Shown here in pieces: positions 3,444-32,159 of a stretch of 32,420 nucleotides of DNA. The notes below the pieces were generated by a model. That model saw nothing but the letters and a program-made list of their open reading frames with translations, did no database searches and had not been told where the DNA came from. The first letter of the stretch is position 1, and every line of letters begins with the position of its first letter. The position numbers were made by a program, and so were the translations under genes. The stretch lies in NCBI GenBank assembly GCA_031283185.1, contig JAITCH010000008.1, positions 1 through 32,420 on the forward strand, given 5' to 3'. Source of the stretch: Rickettsiales bacterium (lineage in GTDB: Bacteria; Pseudomonadota; Alphaproteobacteria; Rs-D84).

Positions 3444-3473
3444 AACCACCCCGCCACCATTGGCGGGGAATTA
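3444..3473 (+). repeat. Short HP-B copy abutting the secB ribosome binding site
   Basis: Only the second hairpin is present (CCCCGCCACCATTGGCGGGG) with the ACC lead and AATT tail. The terminal GGGGAATT runs straight into AAAAGGAAAATAAA and the secB ATG. Confidence 0.8.
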
Positions 3474-3486
3474 AAAGGAAAATAAA

Positions 3487-3930
3487 ATGGCAAATGCAAA
3501 TGAACTGAAACTTATAACACAATTCTTGAAGGATTTTTCCTTTGAGAGTCCCAACGCGCCCGCGCTGTTCTTCCAAAAGGAAAACTCGGCCGCGAAAATG
3601 GAAATTAACCCGGATATTCAAATCAAAGGTGCGGAAAATAACCTTTATATGGTCGACCTCGTCACAAAAGTCCATTCCAAGTTGGAAGCGGGTGATAAAT
3701 CCATATTTATGATTGATGCAACTTATTCGGGACTCGTTTCCGCGAAATACGACAATGAGGCGGAGTTGCAGCACGCATTGTTGGTGCAGATTCCGGCTTT
3801 GTTATTCCCGGGACTCCGCGGGTTGGTTTTGCGCGTCACGGCTGAGTCGGGATTCCCGCCGTTTGCGATGCAATCCGTCGACTTTGAGGCGTTATATCAG
3901 CAGAGAAAGGCTGTCGCGAAGAAGAAATAA
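3487..3930 (+). CDS. secB: Protein-export chaperone SecB
   Basis: The protein is 147 residues, the normal SecB length. SecB forms a homotetramer that keeps precursors unfolded and hands them to SecA. Family features include an early KDFSFESPNAP block, the core strand pattern NLYMVDLVTKVHSKLEAGDKSIFMID, a gap to YSGLV, and the conserved tail LLFPGLRGLVLRVTAESGFPPF ending in the FEALYQQR helix. The start is fixed by AAAAGGAAAATAAA before the ATG. The gene is followed within 100 bp by a strong intrinsic terminator, so it appears to be monocistronic. Confidence 0.93.
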   Translation: MANANELKLITQFLKDFSFESPNAPALFFQKENSAAKMEINPDIQIKGAENNLYMVDLVTKVHSKLEAGDKSIFMIDATYSGLVSAKYDNEAELQHALLVQIPALLFPGLRGLVLRVTAESGFPPFAMQSVDFEALYQQRKAVAKKK

Positions 3931-4002: not shown

Positions 4003-4014
4003 AATAAAATGTTC

Positions 4015-4046
4015 GGGGCGGGGTCGGGAGACCCCGCCCCGCTTTT
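4015..4046 (+). terminator. Intrinsic terminator of secB
   Basis: A perfect 11-bp stem GGGGCGGGGTC / GACCCCGCCCC closes on a GGGA tetraloop and is followed by GCTTTTG. It lies between secB and rpoH in the plus direction. Confidence 0.75.
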
Positions 4047-4071: not shown

Positions 4072-4098
4072 TTGATTTTTAGAAATTTGTGGTAGAAT
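4072..4098 (+). promoter_or_regulatory. Candidate rpoH promoter
   Basis: TTGATT (4072-4077), a 15-nt spacer and TAGAAT (4093-4098). A start site about 7 nt downstream would fall at 4105, exactly on the upstream in-frame ATG. The transcript would then be leaderless for that ATG, or carry an 84-nt leader before the ATG at 4189. Confidence 0.45.
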
Positions 4099-4138
4099 CA
4101 ATTTATGAAAATAAAAAATGACGATTTTATTAAGTCTA

Positions 4139-4187
4139 ACCACCCCGCCGCCGAAGGCGGCACCCCGCCACCATTGGCGGGGAATTA
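4139..4187 (+). repeat. HP-B copy at the 5' end of rpoH
   Basis: Two hairpins, CCGCCGCCGAAGGCGG and CCCCGCCACCATTGGCGGGG, end two bases before the ATG at 4189. The repeat is open in the rpoH frame, so it is either translated (residues 11-27 of the longer form) or forms the 5' untranslated leader. The second hairpin locks the only purine-rich GGCGGGG ahead of the ATG in an 8-bp stem. Confidence 0.8.
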
Positions 4188-4188
4188 T

Positions 4189-5085
4189 ATGGTGCAAAGT
4201 AAAAATGGAAATTGGTTGGAGTCATACATCAACTATGTGAAAAATGTTCCGATGCTGTCCGAGGCCGAGGAAAATGACCTGATCGCGCGCGTCAAAAAAT
4301 TCAAAGACAGAGAGGCCGCTGAAAAAATTATAACAGCGCATCTTCGGATGGTCGTATCCACCGCTTATGAAATGCAAACATACTCTGGCTTTGCTATGCA
4401 AGATATGATTGCAGAAGGAACCATCGGGTTGCTGAAAGCACTCGACAAATTCGACCCAGACAAGGGTGTGCGATTCTCCGTCTACGCCAACTATTGGATT
4501 CGCGCGGAAATCTATTCTATGATTTGGGACAACTGGTCGTCCGTTAAAATCGCAGAAAATCCCGCGCGGAAAAAAATCTTTTTCAACATTGGACGCGCGC
4601 GCCGAGCCCTTGGGATAACCAACGCAGTTCTTGGACGCGGCGATATGGAACGCATCGGGGAATTTTTGGATGTCCCGGTCAAGGAAGTTGAATTTATGTC
4701 CACACGGATGGTGCGGGACTCTTCATTAAATGCGCCTGCGCGTGGCGAAGATGGCGATCAGGAAATTCAAGACCGGCTTGCATCCCACGACGAAATGATC
4801 GGCGATGTTTTAGAGAAAAAAGAATTCACCGCGCGAGGATCGGCAATTTTACAACGGCACCTCGCCGCCCTGCCGGAACGCGACCGCGACATAATCACAC
4901 GCCGGCGATTGTTGGAAAAGCCCGAGACGCTGGAAGAAGTCGCGGCGCGATATAGTATTTCCAAAGAACGCGTGCGGCAGATTGAGAATCGTGTGTTTGA
5001 GGGCTTGAAAGCGAATGTGTTGGCGGATGCGGAGAATCTACGCATCGGTGAAAAGCCCGTTGTGCTAATTGAAAATGAGGAGTGA
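4189..5085 (+). CDS. rpoH: RNA polymerase sigma factor RpoH (sigma-32 family)
   Basis: The protein is 298 residues from the ATG at 4189, the usual RpoH length. An in-frame ATG at 4105 would add 28 residues, mostly translated repeat. Sigma-70 region 2 is clear (HLRMVVSTAYEM, EGTIGLLKALDKFDPDKGVRFS, YWIRAEIYSMIWDNWS). The RpoH-specific box is present as ARKKIFFNIGRARR. Region 4.2 carries the helix-turn-helix ETLEEVAARYSISKERVRQI. RpoH directs the heat-shock regulon in Proteobacteria. It is transcribed alone between the secB terminator and an HP-A hairpin that starts 9 nt after the stop codon. Translation may be controlled by the repeat hairpin in front of it. Confidence 0.92.
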   Translation: MVQSKNGNWLESYINYVKNVPMLSEAEENDLIARVKKFKDREAAEKIITAHLRMVVSTAYEMQTYSGFAMQDMIAEGTIGLLKALDKFDPDKGVRFSVYANYWIRAEIYSMIWDNWSSVKIAENPARKKIFFNIGRARRALGITNAVLGRGDMERIGEFLDVPVKEVEFMSTRMVRDSSLNAPARGEDGDQEIQDRLASHDEMIGDVLEKKEFTARGSAILQRHLAALPERDRDIITRRRLLEKPETLEEVAARYSISKERVRQIENRVFEGLKANVLADAENLRIGEKPVVLIENEE

Positions 5086-14216: not shown

Positions 14217-15440
14217 TTATTTCTTTATCAACTTCTTTACCTCTGCATATACTTTCGTCGTTAGTTGCGCGGCATTCTTATATGCCGCATTGCCAATGTC
14301 TTCCTTCTCCGTTATCCCAAACGCCGACTTTATCTCCGCCGCCACTTTACCTATATTATTAATGATAAATCCAATTACCACAATCAAAATTACAAAGCCA
14401 CTCGCAGATTTTAATATGTCCGGCGACTTGAAATTTATATTGCTAAAATCACCGGCAAGCGCACTCGCCGTCGTCTGATCCCCCAGACCAATAAATCCAG
14501 AAATGACCGAAATAATCACTATATACAAAATCATCATCGACCCAAGCGTGATAATCGAACTTACCACATCCTTGAAAAATGTCGCCGACATACCGCCAAT
14601 CCCCTTTACCCATTCCGGCGATTCCGAATCCCGAATCACAAACGCCGCAAGCATTATCGGAAACAAAAACGCAAAAAATGTCAGCGACAACACCGCGTCC
14701 AAAAACATAAATAAAAATTTTAAGAATATCAGCGCGAACCTTCCCGCTATATAAATCCCAAGCAAAAACAATAAAATCGTTTCCAAGATCGCTGCAAAGT
14801 CCAATAGCAAAATGCTTTGTAGAATCTTCCAATCTAATGACGCGTTCACCATCCCGAGCCCAAATAATATGAGGTTCTGAAAGCCAATCGTGGTAGTTCG
14901 CATAGTGGAGAGGATGGAGTGTTTTAAGTCAGAAGAATAAAACCCATTGCCCCCACCCTGTCCGGCAGAGCCGGACATCCCGCCCCCGGTTCCGGGGGCA
15001 GGAGAATTTTGCCGAGATTGCCCGGTCAAGCCGGGCAATGACTTATTATTTGTTCCGGGGGCAGGAGAATTATTTTGGGGAATTTTGGAGAGGGTGCTGG
15101 TCATCATCGCAATGGGTTCGATGGTAGCAGATGTTAACATCTTTGGAAACTCAATCCCTATGCTTAACAATGCGGAAATAATTAATGCGGGCAGTAAGAC
15201 CGGCTTTACCAATCTTTTATAAAACAACGGATCTTTATCCGAATCCTTCAACTTAATTACCATCAAATACACGACATAAAATGCAATAAACGCCGCCATA
15301 ATTATCAGCGCAAATTGCGATATTCTTGGATATGCCGCCGCAGCCGCGCCCGATACAGTATCAAACATCGCGTCAAATACAGGGCAGGCCCAGCACTGCA
15401 TCGTATGTCTTATTAAAAAGTCAAACGCTTCATTCATCAC
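14217..15440 (-). CDS. VirB6/TrbL-like membrane protein, paralogue c
   Basis: The protein is 407 residues. The N-terminus RHTMQCWACPVFDAMFDTVSG carries the CxxC seen in two other paralogues, followed by a hydrophobic segment (about 42-62). Further hydrophobic stretches lie at about 84-97, 185-200, 210-245, 250-275 and 300-335. A repeat-derived, Gly/Pro/Asn/Gln-rich insert occupies about residues 121-166 (NNSPAPGTNNKSLPGLTGQ and GGGMSGSAGQGGG), between two membrane regions. The basic tail TTKVYAEVKKLIKK resembles those of its neighbours. It overlaps the upstream gene by 4 bp. Function as a type IV secretion channel component is inferred from architecture only. Confidence 0.62.
   Translation of the reverse strand: MMNEAFDFLIRHTMQCWACPVFDAMFDTVSGAAAAAYPRISQFALIIMAAFIAFYVVYLMVIKLKDSDKDPLFYKRLVKPVLLPALIISALLSIGIEFPKMLTSATIEPIAMMTSTLSKIPQNNSPAPGTNNKSLPGLTGQSRQNSPAPGTGGGMSGSAGQGGGNGFYSSDLKHSILSTMRTTTIGFQNLILFGLGMVNASLDWKILQSILLLDFAAILETILLFLLGIYIAGRFALIFLKFLFMFLDAVLSLTFFAFLFPIMLAAFVIRDSESPEWVKGIGGMSATFFKDVVSSIITLGSMMILYIVIISVISGFIGLGDQTTASALAGDFSNINFKSPDILKSASGFVILIVVIGFIINNIGKVAAEIKSAFGITEKEDIGNAAYKNAAQLTTKVYAEVKKLIKK
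14949..15072 (+). repeat. Three repeats inside virB6-like gene c
   Basis: GGGCAGG-type HP-B variant (14949-15010), HP-C (15014-15041, arms ATTGCCCGG / CCGGGCAAT) and the tail half of another variant (15054-15072, TTCCGGGGGCAGGAGAATTA). The last duplicates the end of the first, which suggests insertion of HP-C into the variant with duplication, or two independent insertions. Confidence 0.8.
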
Positions 15441-16597
15441 TTTTTTAACTTCTTCTTTATATACGCCGTCGTTTTGTCTGTAGCGTATTTCGCCGTCTTC
15501 TTCGTCAAATCATACAATGCCGTATTGTTCGCGCCGCCATACTGCGCGATCTTTTCCTTGGCAATTTCATAGAACTTATTCATTATCAGCAAGCACAGCA
15601 CGCTTCCCAAGATCGTCATAATCCCAGTTCCCCAGCCGCCGCCAGATAAATTCGCAGTCCCGCTGCCAACCACGCTCGCAATCAATATCATATTAATCGT
15701 AGTCGCAATGCCAGCCACAATCATCGTAACAATTAACTTCCGAAGACTCTCAATTATATCCCCAAGCGCGTCCCCGGGATTAAACCAATCGTCCCCCTCA
15801 GTCGCCTTTAAGCAATACGAAAAGACCTTGAATGGAAACAATATAATCGCAAAACAGAAATCCAATATACCTTGGAGCAATATAGACGCCAGCCGCAGAC
15901 CAAACATAAAAAATGTCCCAGCCATAAACAGCCCAACAATGAAATTGAATATGCCTTTGCCTAGATCGGGGGGACTAACCACCCCGGCGGCGTTCGCCGC
16001 CACCCCGCCACCATTGGCGGGGAATTTCATATTGATTATGGATAAGCCAAGCGCAACCATCTGATTATTCTTATACACAATACTCGCAATAGGATTCGCA
16101 AAGTCCGAACACAACTTCTCGTCAAAAAACTCCCTCGTTGCGCCAGGTAAACACTGCGCCCGAGACGCCGTCGACGACGGCACCACAAACTCGGTTATCA
16201 TCGTCCCAACACGCAACATCGGATTTATAATCGTATCCGTTATCAATGATGGACGAATAGTAAGCAACAACAATGTCGCAATGCTCGCACGCACTATCTG
16301 CTTTACCAATCGCATCGGTATGCCGCGAATCAAATCAGTCGGCTTTGCCCAATAGCCCCCTCCGTTCATCCCTAGAAAACTGAGCCAATTCGCTGGAAAA
16401 AACTGCTTGGTAGTAAATACCGCAGAATTAAACACAATAACAATCCAAAGCAATCCAGACAGCACAGGCACAAAATAATCATACACCCCCGCCGCCGCGC
16501 CCATCATAGCCTGTATAACAAGCGGCACGAATTTGTCGAACGAGGTCGCGTTCAACCAATCAGGCACCATCGGTAAAGATACAAGCGCGTCTATCAT
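15437..16597 (-). CDS. VirB6/TrbL-like membrane protein, paralogue b
   Basis: The protein is 386 residues. Hydrophobic segments lie near 25-60, 105-120, 212-235, 240-262, 285-310 and 322-345. An HP-B copy encodes KFPANGGGVAANAAGVVSPP at about residues 190-209, right before the segment GIFNFIVGLFMAGTFFMFGL. The tail ANNTALYDLTKKTAKYATDK is the counterpart of the NTTALYN tails of the first and last genes. Two isolated Cys residues (QCLPG and KLCSDF) sit in the loop before the repeat and could form a periplasmic disulphide. It overlaps the preceding gene by 1 bp and the next by 4 bp, so the genes are translationally coupled. Confidence 0.62.
   Translation of the reverse strand: MIDALVSLPMVPDWLNATSFDKFVPLVIQAMMGAAAGVYDYFVPVLSGLLWIVIVFNSAVFTTKQFFPANWLSFLGMNGGGYWAKPTDLIRGIPMRLVKQIVRASIATLLLLTIRPSLITDTIINPMLRVGTMITEFVVPSSTASRAQCLPGATREFFDEKLCSDFANPIASIVYKNNQMVALGLSIINMKFPANGGGVAANAAGVVSPPDLGKGIFNFIVGLFMAGTFFMFGLRLASILLQGILDFCFAIILFPFKVFSYCLKATEGDDWFNPGDALGDIIESLRKLIVTMIVAGIATTINMILIASVVGSGTANLSGGGWGTGIMTILGSVLCLLIMNKFYEIAKEKIAQYGGANNTALYDLTKKTAKYATDKTTAYIKKKLKK
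15976..16026 (+). repeat. HP-B copy inside virB6-like gene b
   Basis: ACCACCCCGGCGGCGTTCGC..CACCCC then GCCACCATTGGCGGGGAATT. In frame, no stop, plus orientation against the gene. Confidence 0.88.
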
Positions 16598-27877: not shown

Positions 27878-29302
27878 CTATTTTAATCCTAGGGAGTTGA
27901 ATTTGGTTTCGACTTTCGTAATGGCAGTGGATAGAGCACGGAGGTAATCTGTTAAAGTAGAGTTGGCATTACTCGCAACGGGCTGCATAGTCTTCTCCAT
28001 CTCCGTCTTCGTCCCAGTCGCCGATTCCGATACTATAATCTTCCGCATCAATGTATTCAACTCAACCAGCTGAATGTCTGATAAAATCGCCTCGCGTTCA
28101 TTAAAATTCCAATAATACGATTCATCCGCCGAATCCTGCACCCCCTCTGACACGCTTACCGATGTCGCCACCACACCCGCAGGTCCAACATTCATTATCT
28201 CTCCCGACACGCCCCCATTCGACATTCCCAAGTGTCTCGCAATCGTCATCTGTCCGCGCGCGTCCCCCGCCGCCACCCATTCCAATGTTAAATTCATCGC
28301 AGTCAACCTTGCCATCTCTACTGACCGAAACTTCGCCGCGTTCCCAAGCATCAAGGTCTCGTGCACATTAATATCCGCACTCTCCGATGTTAAATCCCCC
28401 AGCACATTCGCCTCGCCGCTGACCCCGAACGCCCCTTCAAACTGCACATTCTCCGCAAACGACAAACTTTCGCTATGACCCCATTCCAACGCCATCTCTT
28501 CGGCCGCCTGCGCCGCATTCGTCTTTAACGCGCCCACATTTTTCAGATCATGCGAATCTAAATTCAAATCGCTGAGCATCGTCGAATCAATCGTCCTCCC
28601 CGTCGGCACGCGCGCCAAATAATCACCCCTTTTCTGCACCACCGGCGTCCCAAGCACCAAGCCTTCGCCCTTTATCTTCGCATTCCAGATTTTTAGCGGC
28701 TGCTCCCAAGTGCCAAATGCGCCATACACCCGCTCCCCTGAAACAAAGCCCGCCCGTTCGCCGCCAGCAAGCGCGACCTGGCGCGTCATAAGCGGAGTTT
28801 GGCCGCGCGTCTCCGCAATAATAACGCCTTGTAAATAACTGCGCCCGCCCGCATCACGCGCCTTCATAACGCGCGCGCGAATCGGGTGCGACTTATCATC
28901 TGTATATCCAAACTGCGCCAGTTCCCCCGTCCGAACCTGATACACCGCCGCACCAGTGAAATTCGCCAAGCGCGATTCGTTCGCCTCTATATATTCCGTC
29001 AGCGCGTCCCGCGCGGTCGCAAGATGCGCCGTTTGCTCTGCCGCTAGCCGCAGCGTCTCGCGGCTCGCCGCCTGGCGATATATAAATGGCAGCAGGCTCA
29101 TAAAAATTGCAATCAGCATTAGGAGTTCGAGAAGGGAAGAGCCGCGTTCTTTATTATTCGAACCACCCCGTCCGGCTACGCCGTCCACCCCCCCACCCTT
29201 GGGGGGGAATTTTTTGCGGGCTACGCCCGCGATTTTTAGCCCTATTCCCGCCTGCGCGGGAATGACAAAAGAAAGGAGGGAGAATTGATTCTGTATATTC
29301 AT
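27878..29302 (-). CDS. PilV-like type IV pilin/adhesin, paralogue 3
   Basis: The protein is 474 residues from the ATG at 29302, which overlaps the stop of the upstream gene (ATGA). A prepilin-peptidase site KERG-SSLLELLMLIAIF gives a Glu at +5 and a hydrophobic helix, but the leader ahead of it is about 54 residues and is largely translated repeats (FVIPAQAGIGLK, KKFPPKGGGVDGVAG). The pilin body continues to the PilV-type join YLARVPTGRTIDSTMLSDLN followed by LDSHDLKNVGAL, after which a long beta-rich tail begins. This matches the type IVb PilV/shufflon-type minor pilin layout, where the C-terminal part binds the recipient surface. A Gly/Val-rich tail ends in helical SLGLK. Third gene of a three-gene operon. 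Confidence 0.72.
   Translation of the reverse strand: MNIQNQFSLLSFVIPAQAGIGLKIAGVARKKFPPKGGGVDGVAGRGGSNNKERGSSLLELLMLIAIFMSLLPFIYRQAASRETLRLAAEQTAHLATARDALTEYIEANESRLANFTGAAVYQVRTGELAQFGYTDDKSHPIRARVMKARDAGGRSYLQGVIIAETRGQTPLMTRQVALAGGERAGFVSGERVYGAFGTWEQPLKIWNAKIKGEGLVLGTPVVQKRGDYLARVPTGRTIDSTMLSDLNLDSHDLKNVGALKTNAAQAAEEMALEWGHSESLSFAENVQFEGAFGVSGEANVLGDLTSESADINVHETLMLGNAAKFRSVEMARLTAMNLTLEWVAAGDARGQMTIARHLGMSNGGVSGEIMNVGPAGVVATSVSVSEGVQDSADESYYWNFNEREAILSDIQLVELNTLMRKIIVSESATGTKTEMEKTMQPVASNANSTLTDYLRALSTAITKVETKFNSLGLK
29159..29266 (+). repeat. HP-B plus GCGGGC hairpin plus HP-D in the prepilin leader
   Basis: HP-B (29159-29214, second hairpin CCCCCCACCCTTGGGGGGG) is followed by GCGGGCTACGCCCGC, ATTTTTAGCCC and HP-D ATTCCCGCCTGCGCGGGAAT (29244-29263). 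The second part repeats the composite at 2157-2207. All of it lies between the start codon and the peptidase site of paralogue 3. Confidence 0.88.
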
Positions 29303-30681
29303 TCTGCCACCTGCCAATTGGAATTCATTAATTTCGACATATCTATATGCTCCGCAGTCAACAACTCAGTCAATTCATCCGACGAATACGCCATAACGCG
29401 AATCACATGAAACTCCGGCGTATTACCAGGAAACGACCAGTTCCCTAACTTGATCGGAGGCATCATCGTATCCATCATCCTATCACTCGAAATCGTAACC
29501 CCGCCGCCGCCACCCACATTCAACGCCGCCACCGAAATAGTCGGCGTGCTTAATGAATTCGCCGCTACTTCATCAAATGCAGAAATCGTCCGTGCGGAAA
29601 ATGGCTTTATGCTAAGCGTATTTCCCACAAGCAATTCTTCCGTTATGGTCGTTCGATCCGCCACAACCCGTCCCTGCGAACTGAAAGTATTTTCCGACAA
29701 TGTCGACATCCCCGACCCAGGCAAGCCCCCGTGCAACGCCGCCGCCGTCATAGTCTTCACCCCCACAATATCCCCAGCGACCCTTAATGTCTTCACAAAC
29801 GATTTCTCTGGATTCAACCTCAACCCCTTGGCGAACAACACCGACACCGAATCAAATGTGTCCGCTGACAAATGCGGCGCAGTCGCGTCCGATGCGTCAA
29901 TCTCTACACCATCCGCCAATCGCACCCCCACAATCCCAAACCTTTGGCCGCCACTCGACATCAACAGATTCGTATCCATCGCATTTAACTCCGGCGACCC
30001 AGCCACAGGCACACGATGCAAAAATCCATCCCTGTCCAAATCATTCCCAGTCGCAGATACCCGCACCTGCACCGCGCCATCTTCGTTCACCATCGCGCCC
30101 GCGCCGATATGCCGCGCAAATCTTGCCGCCGTCATTTGCGCCGACCCCGTCATCGTAGTCGTCATATATGCGTTAATCGCAAACACACCCAGCGCAGTTT
30201 GTTTCTTTGTTATATGCACCTGCGGCGCGTTGAAAATATCCGGATGCGATGCGCGCGGGCGAGTTGCCCCATAGGCTTCAAATGTCGCAAAAAAATCATC
30301 CGCGGCGATTTTATATTCATATTCATCCGGCCAGACCGACTGATTCAATAGCATAAAATTTCGAATCGCATCGGCGAGAGTCGTAAAACGGCGCGCGGCA
30401 GAAACCTCTGCCAATTCTTGTGTTGTTTGTGCGATGCGGTCATAAACCCACGGCGCGGCAAGTCCAAGTATGCCGATGGCGAGGAGGGTTTCTAGGAGGG
30501 AGGAGCCGCGGATGGAGCGTTGGTAAGCACCAACCACCCCGCGCCCTTCGGACGCACCCCTCCACCTTGGAGGGGAATTTTTATTGACCACTACCCCGTC
30601 CGGCTGCGCCGTCCACCCCTTCGCCAGCGAAGGGGAATTTTGTGTGCGACACCGGCGAAGGGGGATTTTTATCATAAACAT
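29299..30681 (-). CDS. PilV-like type IV pilin/adhesin, paralogue 2
   Basis: The protein is 460 residues from the ATG at 30681, which has GGGGGGAG just before it. An ATG at 30675 overlapping the upstream stop (ATGA) is an equally good start. The site SIRG-SSLLETLLAIGI has Glu at +5, like paralogue 3. The leader of about 57 residues contains two translated HP-B copies (SPSLAKGWTAQPDGVVV, then SPPRWRGASEGRGVV). The body carries DRDGFLHRVPVAGSPELNAM followed by TNLLMSSGG, a close match to the R-V-P-G-x-P-E-L-N-x-M-x-T-x-L junction of PilV proteins. The remaining 270 residues are Ser/Thr/Ala/Val-rich and probably beta-structured. Confidence 0.75.
   Translation of the reverse strand: MFMIKIPLRRCRTQNSPSLAKGWTAQPDGVVVNKNSPPRWRGASEGRGVVGAYQRSIRGSSLLETLLAIGILGLAAPWVYDRIAQTTQELAEVSAARRFTTLADAIRNFMLLNQSVWPDEYEYKIAADDFFATFEAYGATRPRASHPDIFNAPQVHITKKQTALGVFAINAYMTTTMTGSAQMTAARFARHIGAGAMVNEDGAVQVRVSATGNDLDRDGFLHRVPVAGSPELNAMDTNLLMSSGGQRFGIVGVRLADGVEIDASDATAPHLSADTFDSVSVLFAKGLRLNPEKSFVKTLRVAGDIVGVKTMTAAALHGGLPGSGMSTLSENTFSSQGRVVADRTTITEELLVGNTLSIKPFSARTISAFDEVAANSLSTPTISVAALNVGGGGGVTISSDRMMDTMMPPIKLGNWSFPGNTPEFHVIRVMAYSSDELTELLTAEHIDMSKLMNSNWQVAE
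30528..30671 (+). repeat. Two HP-B copies in the prepilin leader of paralogue 2
   Basis: 30528-30582 has GCGCCCTTCGGACGC and TCCACCTTGGAGGGG. 30585-30671 has GTCCGGCTGCGCCGTCC, TTCGCCAGCGAAGGGG and a further tail unit. They are read in two different frames by the gene and yet leave it open. Confidence 0.88.
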
Positions 30682-32159
30682 TGACTCCCCCCTGCAATTA
30701 AACACTTCTTTATCTCTATCCGGCGTTCAAGGCGCGAATACATCGCATACCGGCACGCAATATTTTGCGATACGCTATTCGCATCATATTTATGACCAAG
30801 TTGCTCTATAATCGACCGGCAGGAAATCGTATCGCCATTACTTTTTTCCGGCGATGAAATTATCTTGATCGAATCATTCGAAATGTTTTGCAATCGCATA
30901 TCCGGCAACAACGATGTCCCCGCAGGTCTTATCGATACAATCGTCGGCGACGCCGTATCCCCGCCGACCAGCACCCTTGCCGTTTGATCGCGCAGCGTAA
31001 TATGCGCCGCGGACAATATCCCCGCAAACACCCCGCTGCGTTTCGTCCCCGTATCGTCATACGAAAACACATTCGCATCACTCGTAATCTCTGCAAAATT
31101 CGCAATCGTTATAAGTCCTAAATCACTAAGCGCGGTATTACTTAACTCCGCACTTCCTTGCACGCGCCATTTCAGCGGTCCGATAAACGATGATGACCCG
31201 GGCGACTGATCATAATCCAACACCGACACCAGTCCTGTTTTCAACTCTGCCCCTTGGCCGCCGTATGACGAAATGCTCCGCACCGACATACTTCCCACAT
31301 TCAACTCGCCGCGCGATAAATTCAATGCGCTATCCCCGCTGGACGCGCCTGTGAATGTCGCCGAGGTCGCCGTCAACTCCTTTATGTCATTCGTTGCCTT
31401 GGATTCGTCCGCGCCGCTGATATGCAATTTGCCGAAAAACGCCGCTGAAAACTTCATACGCAACGCCTCTAATGTCCTCGCGCCAACAACATCGTGATAC
31501 TGCATATCCAAATCTGTCTGCATCGCATTCCTTGCCGGATTCGCAGATGTGCGCGCAAGTAAATCCGAACTCGCCGCCGTTAACGGAATCCTCATAAACA
31601 CCGATGTCGTTGCAAAATCCCCAGGCAATTCCCAATCTCCCGTCGCGCCGCGCAACCCAGTCGCATCCGCAAGCCCTGCCCAGAATCCCAGGCGCATTGC
31701 CAAATTCGCCCTGCGCGATTCGCTTAATCCGCCGCCAAACGCCTCTATTAATGGCGTAGGCTCTTCGCCCTGAACCACATAGAATTTTAGATCTTGGCCC
31801 AGTGGTGTCCGAGGGTTCCATCCAAGTGGCAAGCCATATGGTTCCAAAAAGGCGGACAGCGCGGAGCCGGAAATGACCTTGTCCGGGAGTTTGTCATTAT
31901 TGTCGCGGACGAATTCTGACGCCGCTGTATAAAGCGCGATCATATGCTCTGCCGCAGCAGTGGTTTCCGCGTCAGTCGCGCGATTTGCAAGACGACCAAA
32001 TAATGTCGGCATAAACGCAATTACAACCGCAAGTATCAATAACGCTTCAAACATAAAACGGCCGGAGGCAGGAGTGTAGGGAAAAGTCGAACCACCCCGG
32101 CGGCTCCGCCGCCACCCCCCCACCCTTGGGAGGGAATTTTTTTCTTTTAGGGATTTCAA
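30672..32159 (-). CDS. PilV-like type IV pilin/adhesin, paralogue 1
   Basis: The protein is 495 residues from a TTG at 32159. The TTG start is favoured by a strong AGGAGGGAG six bases ahead and a promoter just upstream. A prepilin-type site ASG-RFMFEALLILAVV (Glu at +5) follows a 33-residue leader that is mostly translated HP-B (NSLPRVGGWRRSRRGGS). The pilin part EHMIALYTAASEFVRDNND and the junction FMRIPLTAASS..ARNAMQTDLDMQYHDVVGA again fit PilV. The tail is beta-rich and ends with several Cys (SCRSIIEQ, ACRYAMY, KCLIAGGSQCL), unlike the other two. It is the first gene of the operon; its stop overlaps the next start region. Confidence 0.75.
   Translation of the reverse strand: MKSLKEKNSLPRVGGWRRSRRGGSTFPYTPASGRFMFEALLILAVVIAFMPTLFGRLANRATDAETTAAAEHMIALYTAASEFVRDNNDKLPDKVISGSALSAFLEPYGLPLGWNPRTPLGQDLKFYVVQGEEPTPLIEAFGGGLSESRRANLAMRLGFWAGLADATGLRGATGDWELPGDFATTSVFMRIPLTAASSDLLARTSANPARNAMQTDLDMQYHDVVGARTLEALRMKFSAAFFGKLHISGADESKATNDIKELTATSATFTGASSGDSALNLSRGELNVGSMSVRSISSYGGQGAELKTGLVSVLDYDQSPGSSSFIGPLKWRVQGSAELSNTALSDLGLITIANFAEITSDANVFSYDDTGTKRSGVFAGILSAAHITLRDQTARVLVGGDTASPTIVSIRPAGTSLLPDMRLQNISNDSIKIISSPEKSNGDTISCRSIIEQLGHKYDANSVSQNIACRYAMYSRLERRIEIKKCLIAGGSQCL
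32087..32142 (+). repeat. HP-B copy in the prepilin leader of paralogue 1
   Basis: GAACCACCCCGGCGGCTCCGCCGCC then CCCCCCACCCTTGGGAGGGAATT (named in parts): GGCGGCTCCGCCGCC and CCCACCCTTGGGAGGG hairpins, in frame between start codon and peptidase site. Confidence 0.85.

Follow-up and report, generated by a model that had tools for sequence, protein, structure and literature searches.

A two-hairpin repeat ahead of an internal ATG of rpoH is probably coding sequence in a reduced alphaproteobacterial genome

In Escherichia coli, translation of rpoH is thermally controlled, and a hairpin near the rpoH start codon is what the locus described here has in common with an RNA thermometer of the E. coli type. 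Repeats that reside within genes offer a different precedent. The Rickettsia palindromic elements (RPEs) are palindromic repeats of 100–150 bp that, in the accessible part of the source, occur in housekeeping open reading frames (ORFs) of a reduced alphaproteobacterial genome and leave the frames unbroken (PMC3767692). Some GTAG- and CGTC-tagged REPs are located inside ORFs, often those of repair genes, e.g. for UvrD-type helicases and DNA ligase, and the same source, as far as it was accessible, cautions that REPs at an apparent N-terminus may in many cases be outside the gene, the true start codon lying downstream (PMC3733652).

We analysed a stretch of 32,420 nucleotides, hereafter the window, from a genome assembled into 15 contigs with 930,384 bases in total. 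The genome belongs to the order Rs-D84, for which genome sizes near 1 Mb are given in the accessible part of PMC12306168. Its rpoH locus carries a copy of a repeat, HP-B, which works like the RPEs and the intragenic REPs, yet is a different element. HP-B shares with RPE-1 to RPE-7 the in-frame position within preexisting ORFs. However, it is only about 50–62 bp long and forms two hairpins, which sets it apart from RPEs as far as the accessible description in PMC3767692 goes, and its host order is probably not Rickettsiales. Like the tagged REPs, HP-B is short, present in many copies and sometimes located within ORFs; in contrast to them it consists of two hairpins and lacks a terminal GTAG or CGTC, CGTC being internal in some copies, beside hairpin 1. 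HP-B itself was not found in print in the literature searched, which consisted mostly of titles and the openings of abstracts. Thus, the kind of repeat is already known, whereas the element, the host group and the density are new as far as this literature shows. Repeats that decorate proteins in the manner of RPEs are thereby extended to another reduced alphaproteobacterial lineage.

The rpoH locus and its start codon

Downstream of secB, which ends at position 3930, the window contains a palindrome (4014–4041), followed by the features listed in Table 1. The two candidate ATG codons are in the same frame at a distance of 28 codons, and this frame is open from 4105 through the repeat into RpoH. 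The product scores 244.6 bits against the RpoH profile NF005143 (cut-off 241) and 239.9 bits against TIGR02392 rpoH_proteo (cut-off 323.1).

Table 1. Features of the rpoH locus (window coordinates).
Feature	Position	Strand	Basis
-35-like hexamer TTGATT, weak, 15 nt spacer	4072..4077	+	sequence; absent from consensus-scan list
-10-like hexamer TAGAAT, TGG before, 6 nt upstream of ATG 4105	4093..4098	+	sequence, ortholog promoter spacing
Most likely start codon of rpoH, on a probably leaderless or near-leaderless mRNA	4105..4107	+	ortholog alignment, ortholog promoter spacing
rpoH coding sequence including the putatively translated repeat, 326 aa	4105..5085	+	
Two-hairpin repeat HP-B, would encode about residues 11–28	4134..4186	+	
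Hairpin 1, variable sequence, covarying stem	4147..4161	+	copy alignment, fold prediction
Hairpin 2, CCCCGCCA-CCAT-TGGCGGGG	4163..4182	+	copy alignment, fold prediction
Internal in-frame ATG, rival start codon	4189..4191	+	without -10-like hexamer upstream

A first-pass annotation of this DNA had placed an HP-B copy between an rpoH promoter and ATG 4189. The copy is indeed there, with AACCACC from 4138 and GGGGAATT ending at 4186, and both hairpins have the form described, the first one being GCCGCC-GAA-GGCGGC. Hairpin 2 does lie just in front of ATG 4189, but at a distance of 6 nt rather than 5 nt. As for the promoter, the -10-like element with its preceding TGG speaks for it, but the -35-like hexamer is only 15 nt away, and the promoter is missing from the consensus-scan list because that scan covered spacers of 16–18 nt.

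Where translation starts can be judged from the orthologs. Two RpoH orthologs were recovered from the same genus, and their N-termini, MNKNKTDF (G002, from a GTG) and MNKTNAKF (G003), align to MKIKNDDF at 4105. In both proteins the residues on either side of the repeat align with the window RpoH, and the repeat itself is missing. The best match in a further genome, G001, is weak and RpoD-sized (E 6.6e-20), i.e. no RpoH ortholog. Across rpoH orthologs, the distance from the start to the conserved core ranges from 14 to about 40 codons.

A second line of evidence is provided by promoter spacing. Scoring as -10-like any hexamer with at least four of six matches, A2 and T6 being required, we found such an element 4–10 nt, mostly 6–9 nt, upstream of an in-frame ATG or GTG at 28 of 30 rpoH loci including that of the window, a count that does not represent 28 independent events since the orthologous loci share kinship. 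The hexamer reaches five or six matches in 27 of the 28 loci and four in the remaining one (L035); two loci (L031 and L038) have no qualifying hexamer. Each rpoH value is the best of several starts, and a control recomputed in the same manner, in which every ATG or GTG within the first 60 codons was tried, yielded 35 of 110 ORFs from the same loci reaching five of six matches. The spacing recurs at ATG 4105 and no -10-like hexamer precedes ATG 4189, so 4105 is most likely the start of rpoH in the window. The pattern also suggests that a leaderless or near-leaderless rpoH mRNA may be a conserved trait of the family.

We therefore favour the first-pass annotation's own alternative, a leaderless mRNA from 4105 with a translated repeat, in whose favour the ortholog N-termini, the promoter spacing and the in-frame copies in many other proteins (see below) all speak. 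On this sequence evidence, the repeat is probably a translated part of the rpoH coding sequence and not a regulatory leader. A short mobile repeat with two hairpins would have entered the N-terminal tail of rpoH without breaking the frame. Transcription would begin at ATG 4105 or within a few bases of it, and the ribosome would pass through both hairpins, giving RpoH about 17–18 repeat-encoded residues in the variable part that precedes sigma region 2. The insertion would be tolerated rather than regulatory, presumably neutral for RpoH function.

Other readings of the hairpins at rpoH

Alternatively, the repeat could be a 5' untranslated leader, RpoH being made from ATG 4189 at a constitutively lower rate as hairpin 2 hides the GGGG tract. 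This is unlikely. In its favour, ATG 4189 is in frame and follows the stem with its GGGG tract after 6 nt; moreover, GGGG is paired in the predicted fold, and the extragenic position ascribed to many N-terminal REPs in the accessible part of PMC3733652 would fit as well. However, the -10-like hexamer is absent near 4189 and found 6 nt before 4105, as in the orthologs, and the residues preceding the repeat align with ortholog N-termini.

It is quite improbable that the repeat acts as RNA, stabilising or attenuating the rpoH transcript irrespective of the start codon. Stable and covarying hairpins would suit such a role, which has been credited to REPs (PMC3733652, accessible part), but HP-B copies face either way with respect to genes and fall into several reading frames, a spread that does not point to a shared function as RNA.

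The temperature-dependent switch on ATG 4189 that the first-pass annotation had put forward, i.e. hairpin 2 as an RNA thermometer whose melting frees the rpoH Shine-Dalgarno sequence, was rejected as highly improbable: hairpin 2 does cover the sole purine tract before 4189, and rpoH of E. coli sets the precedent, but the hairpin (predicted dG37 -15.7 kcal/mol) is predicted to be too stable for opening between about 30 and 42 C, the GGGG tract at 4178–4182 having a predicted unpaired probability of 0.002 at 37 C, 0.003 at 42 C and 0.018 even at 70 C (stretch 4105–4260), and it is an unconserved copy of a generic interspersed repeat, absent from the same-genus orthologs of G002 and G003 and probably located within coding sequence. 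If the repeat is indeed translated, a tempting regulatory reading is corrected here, as a hairpin that precedes what looks like the start codon can belong to the coding sequence.

Form of HP-B and its copies within proteins

A DNA search with the rpoH copy returned 42 places at E <= 0.001 in its own genome, far beyond chance. The unit reads AACCACCCCG, a variable hairpin 1, CACCCC[GTC]CCA, a short loop and TGG[ACG]GGGGAATT, so that a fixed C-rich head and tail frame two hairpins, and this exact pattern matches 97 times in the genome (26 forward, 71 reverse). Among 66 copies, the edges are formed by GGGGAATT on one side and, on the other, by a C that precedes AACC by two bases. In 49 aligned copies, two-hairpin pairing holds in 96.9% of cells as compared to 82.4% in shuffles, and the covariation score is 0.296 as compared to 0.066, values to which the shuffles lend no probability because the copies are related. 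Both sides of the stem change in six of the seven pairs of hairpin 1.

Sorted by the base before AACC and the base in the loop of hairpin 2, the copies fall into a T/A type (20 copies), to which the rpoH copy belongs, and a G/C type (18 copies); T/C was found once and G/A never, and 13 of the 52 copies compared belong to neither type. Seven hairpin 1 stem starts are common to the T/A and G/C types. The G/C type has no stop codon in any frame and is located within ORFs in 16 of 22 cases, as compared to 7 of 26 for the T/A type (Fisher p 0.003), an excess that is in part explained by stops in two of the six frames of the T/A type.

Further two-hairpin types related to HP-B occur throughout the window (147–32414). 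The repeat families listed for the window, with about 13–17 copies each, share hairpin 1 modules and differ in heads and tails, e.g. ACCACTACCCCG with TTCGCCAGCGAAGGGGACTTT, which looks like a modular exchange of parts. At 3447–3473, the hairpin 2 half of HP-B stands alone, the secB ATG (3487) lying about 14 nt downstream, and is followed by AAAAGGAAAATAAA; this arrangement makes it probably a true leader element at that gene.

For the position of copies relative to genes, we examined 56 fuller copies in 34 loci of this genome plus the window, or 66 with a looser pattern, a non-random sample since the loci were picked by likeness to the rpoH copy. REPs are mostly intergenic by the accessible parts of their descriptions; in contrast, 29 of the 66 HP-B copies lie within ORFs of at least 200 aa, distributed over the six frame classes as 12, 6, 1, 1, 5 and 4. 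A Pfam match was obtained for 14 of 20 host ORFs tested, namely a TrbI-like protein, a RecG-like helicase, a UvrD/AddA-like helicase, a porin, a radical SAM protein, LigA, TsaD, XseA, Der, MiaA, a TrmB-like methyltransferase, MltG/YceG, an acyltransferase and RpoH. The gene shortly before the radical SAM host is presumably that for anaerobic ribonucleotide reductase. Many of the genes with an in-frame copy are essential ones. The six host ORFs without a Pfam match are those of L003 and L042 and four in the window (15440–16597, 27881–29317, 29302–30705 and 30675–32159).

In the 14 proteins, 14 of 17 placements are outside the Pfam domain envelopes, and the LigA copy touches a domain boundary by one residue. 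The copies in TsaD and MiaA sit in a loop that varies among species. In alignments, this insert is missing from the equivalent site in TsaD and MiaA of both G001 and G002 and in Der of G002; the G003 versions of Der and MiaA, though found by the searches, were left out of this same-genus comparison. TsaD of G003 (L117) has different inserts of its own, of which one, containing PAKAGV, occupies the same variable loop and a second lies nearer the C-terminus. At L040:1995-2047, a single copy forms the C-terminus of TsaD and is also located within the N-terminal part of the overlapping xseA. MiaA (L132, G000:C5) carries a second in-frame insert, QKSPSLAKGWTAKQDGVVVNNNSN, in its C-terminal part, a sequence with about 40 other matching places in the genome.

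Distribution, orientation and mobility

Three overlapping sets of genomes were searched with the exact pattern, and none of the 59 further genomes from the family, the 200 from the order (201 searched including its own) and the 384 from a class sample has a match. Apparently, HP-B has invaded one of the 201 order genomes searched, densely and recently. The same-genus relatives, which lack the repeat, thus allow the study of target sites and of the tolerance towards inserts.

In a genome contig collection, which may omit records near the window genome, the pattern is present in 29 stretches, all from three named metagenome-assembled genomes (MAGs): the Cloacimonadota MAG Nt197P3bin46 with 30 matches, the Lentimicrobiaceae MAG Th196P4bin9 with five and one Bacteroidetes MAG with a single match. 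Judging from their bin names, we take Nt197P3bin46 and Th196P4bin9 to be termite gut MAGs. Outside any ORF of at least 120 aa lie 27 of the 36 MAG copies. Among viral contigs (IMG/VR), one match was found (L143). Its length and match position are the same as those of the Cloacimonadota contig L081, so the two are probably one contig, the IMG/VR record may be bacterial, and the match does not speak for a phage; a virus as vehicle was dismissed.

Among the matches listed, which cover nine contigs and 66 of the 97 matches (the other 31 were left out), 65 of 66 places follow the majority orientation of their own contig, as compared to a maximum of 52 in 20,000 random trials. In the stretches read, contig C14 has forward copies only, and C15 and C4 have both orientations. 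Relative to their host genes, the in-gene copies point both ways, and the orientation bias is thus not set by transcription. We infer that insertion is tied to the direction of replication, and the fixed orientation per contig makes such a replication-linked mechanism testable. GC skew was considered as an indicator of replication direction but set aside, as its signs conflicted from one contig to another within the stretches read.

Tentatively, and with doubt about the whole as a joint reading, these observations could be combined as follows. A mobile two-hairpin element would have crossed phyla in gut communities and entered a single species of an alphaproteobacterial order with reduced genomes, inserting in an orientation fixed relative to the replication fork. 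A gene-enriched subfamily (TCG...CCCTT) would be open in all six frames, and the fact that the head base changes together with the loop base of hairpin 2 (T with A, G with C), the hairpin 1 between them being interchangeable, would reflect base pairing in target or end recognition.

As to the machinery, HP-B resembles REPs moved by RAYT in that the genome has one RAYT-like gene and in that uniform orientation would fit single-strand transposition. The gene (L126:1423-1920) scores 80.0 bits by hmmscan and 79.7 in the genome search, the cut-off being 80. A PF01797 match was obtained for the window genome alone when 12 relatives were compared, and NF047646 matches occur in 7 of 191 order genomes; the family member G010, whose RAYT scores 85 bits, has no HP-B match. 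In contrast to RAYT-moved REPs, HP-B copies do not flank the RAYT-like gene, the nearest HP-B-like copy being about 0.7 kb off. That HP-B was moved in trans, by RAYT or by a single-strand mechanism of the IS200 type, is our guess. The RAYT-like gene itself is flanked by another palindrome family, GGGTGGGGGTCAGGAGACCCCCACCC, which is similar to the window palindrome between secB and rpoH.
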